Assembly (NCBI GenBank): GCA_019358855.1
Contig: JAHHII010000005.1
Coordinates: 310,001-374,000, forward strand
Reading direction: 5' to 3'
Length of the DNA stretch: 64,000 nucleotides
DNA from: Timaviella obliquedivisa GSE-PSE-MK23-08B
GTDB taxonomy: Bacteria > Cyanobacteriota > Cyanobacteriia > Elainellales > Elainellaceae
Within the stretch, counting starts at the first letter, position 1, and each line of letters opens with the position of its first letter. A program made the translations under genes and the position numbers. Below are positions 21,520 to 24,838 of this stretch, piece by piece. The notes under the pieces are model-generated. The model did no database searches, was not told where the DNA came from, and was given only the letters and a program-made list of their open reading frames with translations.

Positions 21520-21561
21520 CAGGTTTTCTCCTTGAAAGCATCAAATAACGAACACGATCTC

Positions 21562-21712
21562 AGAGGATGTCTGAGAAGTATCAAAGATTCTTACACTTGC
21601 CCCCCAACCCCTCACTCTGGGGGACTTCCGAATCAATGCTCCTTCAAAGTCCCCCAGAATGGGGGATTTAGGAGGCGGATCGGAAGCAATTTAAACTTCT
21701 CAGACATCCTCT
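21562..21712. mobile_element. MITE-like element with perfect 18-bp terminal inverted repeats
   Basis: The 151-bp segment begins with AGAGGATGTCTGAGAAGT and ends with its exact reverse complement. It has no coding capacity. Inside is a palindromic module built on GGGGGACTTCC and AAAGTCCCCCAGAATGGGGG. The same inner module occurs in a second, differently bordered element at 24.2 kb. No clear target-site duplication is seen. Confidence 0.8.
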
Positions 21713-21802
21713 CAAGCCTTACCTACCTGCCTCTACTTTAGTCCTGGAATAACCCCATCGAACAGATAATCTGCGCCCCATCTCGTCTTTCCTCTGGGTT
21801 AA

Positions 21803-23717: not shown

Positions 23718-24039
23718 AATCAGATGTTAAGGGGATTAGGGTATTTATAGAATAGCGGTTGAAGGGCGATCGCGTCTTAAACCTGCTTCATTGACATTCT
23801 AGACAAAGACAATCTTTAAACAAAAACTAGTATTAATGGGCTAGCCATTCAGTAGCTTGGATCAATAGCTTGGGCAACGAATAACTTACTCCAGTTACCT
23901 CATAAATCTACAGCTTTGTCAAGCGTTCTCAGTCGTTAGCCTAGCTCCTCTGTCAATGTTGTTGATCAAAAATTGGGTGGCATCAGCTTTTGTCGTCGCT
24001 TGAGAGAAAAGAGTAGTCAATCCTTGGTGTTGCTGCTAA
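23718..24039. other. Intergenic stretch without recognisable genes
   Basis: About 320 bp between the XRE-type gene and the second MITE-like element. I see no coding region or RNA structure that I can name here. Confidence 0.5.
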
Positions 24040-24320
24040 GGGAGTTGCAATTAAATAACGCCCCGAACCGCCCCCTAAATCCCCCATTCTGGGTAGGGAC
24101 GATTCTCTAAGAAGAGAAAAACTGCTTGAATCCCATAATCTCGTTAGCCATCAAAATAGGAGCAACGTAACAATGCGGGATTTAAGTTTTTTCTCCAACT
24201 AACGAATCAGCCCTACCCATTCTGGGGGACTTCCGAACCTTTCAAAGTCCCCAGAATGGGGGATTCAGGAGGCTGAAAAGTCAATGCATTTCACTGGTGT
24301 TTTATTTTCACGCAACTCCC
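24040..24320. mobile_element. MITE-like element with TAA target duplication
   Basis: The 281-bp element begins GGGAGTTGC and ends GCAACTCCC. The inner flanks extend the repeat imperfectly (AAATAA / TTATTT). It is bordered on both sides by TAA, consistent with a 3-bp target duplication as made by some IS5-group elements. It contains CCCCCATTCTGG blocks in inverted orientation and the same inner palindrome as the 21.6-kb element. No transposase gene is present. Confidence 0.7.
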
Positions 24321-24838
24321 TAACAGTAAAAGAAACGCTCAATGACAAAAATAAAGCTGTTGGAGCAGAAGATTTAGTTAAAACTGTCTATGGGTTGGGA
24401 TATCGCCTAAACCATGTTATTAAGGAGTTTAAGCCAGAGCCAATACTTGATTTAGGTAAGCAGCAGGATATTTTGAATGCGCAGGAAACGCAATTTTAGG
24501 AACGCTTAGCAAATGCCAACTGTAATGTTCCAACTCAAGTTTTAAGCTGCCCTTTGGTAATGAAACAAGGAACAGATTTTTCATAGCAAAATCGGCTCTA
24601 ACGCAAATTTTAACAATTGATCGAAATCAAGATTTTATCGATCGCTTTGTGACTGAAGTTGGAACGCGAGATATACAAACAGCGATCGCTCTGACTAAGC
24701 CCTGCTCAAAAATCGATTTAACGGATACGCCCCGATGGTGTAGTCATCGATCGATCTCAGTTTGATCAGGCAGAAGGATTGAAGTTACTGGAGGATTTAG
24801 GTTTAGCAGTGTTGGCGATCGTGTCGAGCATGGCATTG
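24321..24838 (+). pseudogene. Remnant of a multidomain response regulator
   Basis: Immediately after the MITE border the plus strand reads KAVGAEDLVKTVYGLGYRLNHV, the C-terminal end of an OmpR-type winged helix. After a TAG it continues with LTIDRNQDFIDRFVTEVG, and in another frame GVVIDRSQFDQAEGLKLLEDLGLAVLAIVSSM, resembling the start of a receiver domain. The order winged helix then receiver fits a known class of large cyanobacterial hybrid regulators. Several stops and shifts are present and the N-terminal receiver domain is missing. Confidence 0.6.

Follow-up and report, generated by a model that had tools for sequence, protein, structure and literature searches.

Short G/C-rich hairpin repeats occur by the hundred in many bacterial genomes, and where a RAYT is absent their origin is unclear. 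Among described systems, the REP, REPIN and BIME sequences and their RAYT come closest to the repeat considered here; both consist of high-copy hairpins of ~30 bp set in head-to-head pairs, represented here by 257 half-arm matches and 127 arm pairs, and REPtrons, as outlined in part of one report (PMC3733652), provide a comparison for a single gene copy flanked by the same hairpins. Unlike REPIN/RAYT systems, the partner gene here encodes a DUF559 nuclease and the hairpin modules lie inside MITEs; inspection of the module consensus by eye showed neither a GTAG nor a CGTC tag at the foot of the hairpin. The EDxHD (Vsr-like) homing endonucleases, e.g. I-Bth0305I, form a second group for comparison, as the DUF559 protein is predicted to have the same fold. 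However, its gene lies outside introns and inteins, is flanked by its own hairpins and is accompanied by many gene-free hairpin copies. The host elements resemble MITEs that generate 3-bp TNA duplications, having terminal inverted repeats and lengths of ~149-150 bp, but they differ from typical members in that two families share a core derived from neither family's ends. The small dispersed repeats of Nostoc are also small mobile repeats, embedded in cyanobacterial minitransposons; at 21-27 nt and with sequences that differ from the module, they are set apart by their description. Our preferred reading, which we hold to be probable rather than secure, sees in the module a REPIN-like palindrome that is associated with a Vsr-like DUF559 nuclease, not with a RAYT, and that spreads as MITE cargo with homing-like copying.

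The locus under study lies at 24040-24320 on the forward strand of the window (the whole 64,000-nucleotide stretch of DNA that was analysed). The preliminary description had recognised it as a MITE with a TAA duplication and ends unlike those of a second element at 21.6 kb, and had noted an inner module common to both; all of this holds. The element is a copy of a family, designated A, that has copies across the whole genome; its termini are GGGAGTTGC and GCAACTCCC, and TAA flanks it on both sides (24037-24039 and 24321-24323). The 21.6-kb element (21563-21711, forward strand) belongs to a different family, B, with GAGGATGTCTGAGAAG ends in place of GGGAGTTGC and TCA (21560-21562 and 21712-21714) in place of TAA. 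The module consists of two 30-bp hairpin arms, GCCCCCTAAATCCCCCATTCTGGGGGACTT, arranged head to head with a short loop between them, and the sequence GGGGGACTTCCGAA within it is an exact match at 21619 and 24224; when up to two mismatches are allowed, shuffled sequences average 0.30 matches to GGGGGACTTCCGAA and contain two in 3/100 cases. The half-arm CCCCCAGAATGGGGGATT, at up to three mismatches, is matched four times, compared with an expectation of 0.05, and the 12-bp core CCCATTCTGGGG/CCCCAGAATGGG forms an inverted repeat free of mismatches. Within the family B copy the module occupies 21599-21676 (forward strand), its left arm being partly decayed. In the family A copy it is split (24070-24273, forward strand) by a separate 122-bp insertion, TAGGGACGATTC...GAATCAGCCCTA, in the left hairpin (24094-24215, forward strand), which the preliminary description overlooked and which, from its target and ends, appears to be of ISAs1 type. 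An 11-bp duplication, CCCATTCTGGG, borders this insert (24083-24093 and 24216-24226), so that the left arm runs from 24070 to 24093 and resumes past the second duplication copy, followed by the loop ACTTCCGAACCTTTCAAAGT at 24229-24248 and a right arm that extends to 24273. The nested element accounts for the length of this copy, 281 bp, relative to its relatives; given the 122-bp insert and the 11-bp duplication, a plain family A element is ~149 bp.

Across the 4.91-Mb genome from which the window comes (G000), the 18-mer CCCCCAGAATGGGGGATT has 257 matches at up to two mismatches, and the reversed pattern, used as a control, has none. A covariance search, in which 150 of 2027 first-look candidates were scored, placed modules at a minimum of 132 distinct sites; this census is partial and its module counts are lower bounds, from which diverged stand-alone modules may be missing. 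The ~404 kb of sequence retrieved contain 127 facing arm pairs and 18 single arms, and the exclusion of six 37-bp arm pairs and the single arms leaves 121 modules. Both sides are clear in 66 modules within family B and 46 within family A; two further modules lie in symmetric A elements (one with two long sides, the other with two short), six are one-sided, and in one, a DUF559 cassette, neither MITE side is recognisable. Families A and B have the hallmarks of MITEs, with terminal inverted repeats and target duplications of fixed short length: identical 3-bp flanks border 29/40 family A elements (TNA in 26) and 54/65 family B elements (TNA in all). In this genome the module is thus carried along as the shared core of two MITE families, each of which makes 3-bp TNA duplications on moving. 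No parent insertion sequence of family A was present at the end matches inspected.

The nesting of the module in MITEs, anticipated from the window, extends beyond these two families to at least two more types in other genomes. A survey of 40 stretches from two related genomes, G005 and G015, found modules in B-like MITEs and a third type with GGCGTTGCTGAAT ends in the former and modules adjoining MITE D-like sequences in the latter, this fourth type being shared by G015 and the sister genome G033. The suggestion that the module is a structure that elements acquire also fits. The preliminary description had also asked whether the module occurs alone with precise borders, and here the answer differs: none of the 121 arm pairs in the partial G000 census is a stand-alone, gene-free module, since all except the DUF559 cassette have at least one MITE side. 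A short motif, GGWTCGG, recurs in several MITE families (G000, G005 and G033), both in the loop, beside one arm, and immediately outside one arm. The reading of the GGTTCGG direct repeat, in the loop and beside one arm, as a duplication from the insertion of a single hairpin was dropped because, from their orientations, the two copies in family B flank different hairpins.

The one module with neither MITE side, C2:178000-178498, is a 499-bp cassette in which the same arms (here 38 bp, perfectly inverted and identical to the module arm) enclose one DUF559 gene. This gene encodes 134 amino acids from its first start codon, matches PF04480 (DUF559) with an E-value of 1.4e-39, and is the sole PF04480 match to its genome in a profile search. 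The same layout is found in Phormidium, Phormidesmis, Acaryochloris and other named cyanobacteria. When 20 arms from 10 cassettes of this and related genomes (arm-to-arm spans of 496-671 bp) are aligned, the first G of GCCCCC divides nearly complete conservation on the inner side from low conservation beyond; the alignment was anchored on a 17-mer containing that G, and its inner part and the outside sequence constitute the fair test. The arms bound the cassette as well as the gene-free module, and their outer edge is sharply defined at that G.

Comparison with the sister genome G033 relates the cassette to the gene-free module. G033 has its own cassette on a different contig (L074, the same locus as L095), and its locus matching the G000 cassette site, which is decayed, is without one. 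Five G033 copies of MITE D (ends near TACCGTGTACACA), each with a gene-free module, align across the right border of the G000 cassette, the flank of their module junction, GGTTCGC.AGGGACTT, being the right flank of that cassette; in one copy, L363, the left flank, ending TTTTTC, matches as well. Module and cassette thus stand beside one and the same flank of a single MITE family in the two sister genomes, as alternative fillings of one MITE-family site. Mobility of the module itself is indicated only indirectly, by arms that bound a sharp-edged nuclease cassette and by the lack of that cassette at the corresponding locus in G033. The cassette showed no target duplication of its own. One end of the gene-free modules retains ACTTCCGA, whereas ACTTTGA is found at both ends of cassettes, and the modules are therefore not simple internal deletions of the observed cassette. 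The G000 cassette sits within GGCGTTGCTGAAT ends 748 bp apart. A third MITE type, with GGYGTTGCTGAAT ends, occupies the same site in L274 (G033 C203) and L062 (G000 C2:177400-178700), with differing insides; the G000 copy contains a further MITE and the DUF559 cassette.

The cassette protein is assigned to the PD-(D/E)XK nucleases with the Vsr/EDxHD homing-endonuclease fold, as judged from profile and modelled-structure comparisons, and has conserved acidic and histidine residues. An AlphaFold model of a close relative, L063 (pLDDT 83.5), matches 3hrl, I-Bth0305I and, more weakly, Vsr; the match to an EDxHD homing endonuclease fold such as that of I-Bth0305I has a Foldseek E-value of 1e-4 and a profile E-value of 1.3e-6. 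Residues E26, E66, D68, H72 and D79 are invariant in 21 proteins, including that of the cassette (alignment A2), and D55 is nearly so in the same set. Placement of a DUF559 gene in the EDxHD family also appears in a portion of one published study (PMC9403480). According to an excerpt of a review, the target of I-Bth0305I is nearly 60 bp and is bound by a dimer (PMC3943268), and part of another account describes a Caulobacter DUF559 protein, VsrA, that acts in DNA damage, possibly via double-strand breaks (PMC12907096).

The pairing of DUF559 genes with inverted repeats extends to other bacterial groups. The comparison covered 109 DUF559 loci, drawn from cyanobacteria, a second class-level lineage of the phylum, Chloroflexi, Bacillota and other groups. 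In 66 of them an inverted repeat scoring at least 15 links the two 300-bp flanks, compared with 0/143 other genes of the same loci, 0/73 genes that have 80 bp or more of intergenic sequence to either side and 0/2180 two-base-block shuffles; the remaining 43 have no inverted pair at that score. This test leaves out the weaker or edge-cut loci L100-L111 as well as L095 (= L074) and L307 (= L322). A class-level set, retrieved after the pattern was noticed, gave 21/40 DUF559 loci against 0/50 controls. The repeat types vary between loci, e.g. CCCTCACCC..CTCTCCC, CCCCCCTT and CCCTCCCC, and many follow a common plan, with a G-run tag after a hairpin. In a tree built from 108 of the 113 DUF559 proteins (short rows, L070, L307 and L095 being left out), arm type is clustered, requiring 34 changes compared with a shuffled mean of 56.8, a value as low being reached in 0/200 shuffles. 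The AAATCCCC arm type falls mainly in a single clade of 13 rows, starred on the tree, and its close neighbours; two members, L067 and L089, carry other labels from a crude motif count, yet their sequences show a AAATCCCC-type arm. This arm type, which is that of the module, accompanies one DUF559 clade. G005 and G015 each have two DUF559 genes, each gene with a different arm type. In the literature searched, which was mostly without subscription papers, no published link between DUF559 and hairpin repeats was found.

Several further DUF559 genes lie beside G/C-rich hairpins. The ycjD gene of Escherichia coli K-12 is a DUF559 gene, and one E. coli copy (L221) has no inverted pair across the gene, with G/C-run hairpins on its 3' side only. 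In E. coli BW25113 (L226), ycjD lies between sapF and fabI, again with G/C-run hairpins 3' of the gene, and a 41-bp stretch of these is matched elsewhere in E. coli genomes. As an empty-site test ycjD was not clean, because the ycjD-less genomes examined have other genes next to fabI. DUF559 genes are also found beside high-G/C hairpins on plasmids of Sinorhizobium K101 (L224) and Azospirillum (L225), the former hairpins presumably resembling RIME elements.

Arm matches are present in 23 of 36 genomes of the family, counts that are lower bounds as the search pattern carried a loop one base longer than that of the arms in G000. All eight genomes with this DUF559 clade have between 11 and 79 matches, compared with 7/28 genomes without it that reach 10 or more, these being raw counts that ignore relatedness. 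Absences in the PF04480 search are not absolute, since it gave no match in the E. coli control genome, even though ycjD of K-12 encodes a DUF559 protein, and G026, G027 and G029 were therefore searched again with the protein. By neither profile nor protein search was this nuclease found in the three (G026 being 100% complete), and they contain 87, 45 and 135 arm matches, respectively. Unless the nuclease was lost there, these genomes constitute the main evidence against a simple requirement for it; loss, another mover or spread as MITE cargo only are the options for their arms.

The rival explanation that survives best is also encouraged by these three genomes. It treats the double hairpin as a structural or regulatory piece, e.g. 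a two-way terminator or an insulator, that is favoured in MITEs, and proposes that DUF559 is not its mover, the genes merely inserting into, or persisting beside, such hairpins. Consistent with this, every gene-free module of the retrieved set lies in a MITE or the remains of one, and the consensus module folds much better than its shuffles (z -11.7). Nevertheless, passive carriage does not predict that arm type should track a nuclease clade, that one genome can hold two nuclease-arm pairs, that cassette borders should be sharp at the arms, or that the association should recur in other phyla with different arm sequences, and we judge it unlikely, if still deserving of serious consideration.

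A second rival holds that simple recombination, in which one MITE family handed the module to the other at shared sequence, is sufficient alone. Exchange of this kind has a tangible trace: one of the one-sided modules, C3:448167-448238, is a hybrid element with a B-like left part and a right part of family A that meet at the module, and because of it recombination at the arms probably did move the module between the two families. The loop ACTTCCGAACC...TTCAAAGT is common to both families, one element has two long A sides (Al/Al) and another two short ones (As/As), and the loop is inverted relative to the outer ends in 18/46 A copies and 3/66 B copies, one further B copy being ambiguous. Such frequent inversion marks the arms as sites of frequent DNA rearrangement. 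As a complete account, however, recombination between A and B leaves unexplained both the further MITE types in other genera and the nuclease cassette with the same arms, and its sufficiency is improbable; restriction of the module to one MITE family, which together with simple recombination the preliminary description had named as the contrary outcome, is contradicted by these data, while the hybrid lends the recombination half some substance. A classical REP/REPIN mobilised by a RAYT (Y1, or HUH, tyrosine transposase) has the same overall form, of high-copy short palindromes in inverse pairs, but is rejected for this genome as very improbable, there being no PF01797 match among seven candidates scored in a search whose control was positive in 5/14 known genomes.

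If the palindrome is indeed tied to the DUF559 nuclease, the enzyme would recognise the arms and cut or nick the DNA there or in the stretch between them. A second copy would then serve as repair template, with homology supplied by the arms, so that the cassette is copied in a homing-like manner, and arm-based repair may exchange or invert the DNA between the arms, such that unrelated MITEs come to share the module. Once the module is in a MITE, most of its multiplication would be performed by the MITE transposase. From the arrangement of the sequences we infer both the cutting at the arms and the homing-like, nuclease-driven repair copying. The hairpin-DUF559 pairing would in this way explain how unrelated MITEs share a core, offers a concrete candidate for the maker and mover of such repeats, and gives a testable role to DUF559, which is listed in Pfam as of unknown function. 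Whether bacteria possess, alongside RAYT/REPIN, a second major class of REP-like mobile elements that is made up of DUF559 nucleases and their hairpins and spans several phyla is a more tentative matter that we would sooner doubt than assert. The accompanying idea, that a homing-type nuclease cuts at the hairpins and thereby spreads through genomes both the gene that encodes it and double hairpins without a gene, is likewise put forward as speculative. If true, such a class would account for families of G/C-run hairpin repeats, such as those of the CCCTCACCC..CTCTCCC kind, for which no mover is known.

The module is in turn a target for other elements. Insertion sequences that target REPs are known (PMC1525189); the insertions described here are alike in that ISAs1-type elements lie inside a hairpin, and differ in that the target is the module and not a described REP. 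In a whole-genome search, the 122-bp TAGGGACGATTC...GAATCAGCCCTA element occurs at four places, all inside a module hairpin: 24094-24215 of the window and, elsewhere in G000, C7:63425, C13:76810 and C18:68878. A frameshifted ISAs1-family copy (L359, C4:389407-390560; NF033564) lies inside a module hairpin at the same spot as the 122-bp element, its ends, CAGGGCTGATC, being related to but not identical with TAGGGACGATTC. This copy and seven short elements occupy module hairpins, their insertion point being CC(C)ATTCTGGG(G) or variants, and nested inserts have 10-11 bp duplications in the copies examined; only the count for the 122-bp element is unbiased, because the other loci were retrieved for carrying modules. 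Some family A copies, among them L016, L026, L027, L029 and L041, have modules of 75-76 bp with an extra CAGG or GCAGGG at the hairpin; this addition corresponds to one end of the CAGGGCTGATC element and looks like a trace of that element's loss.
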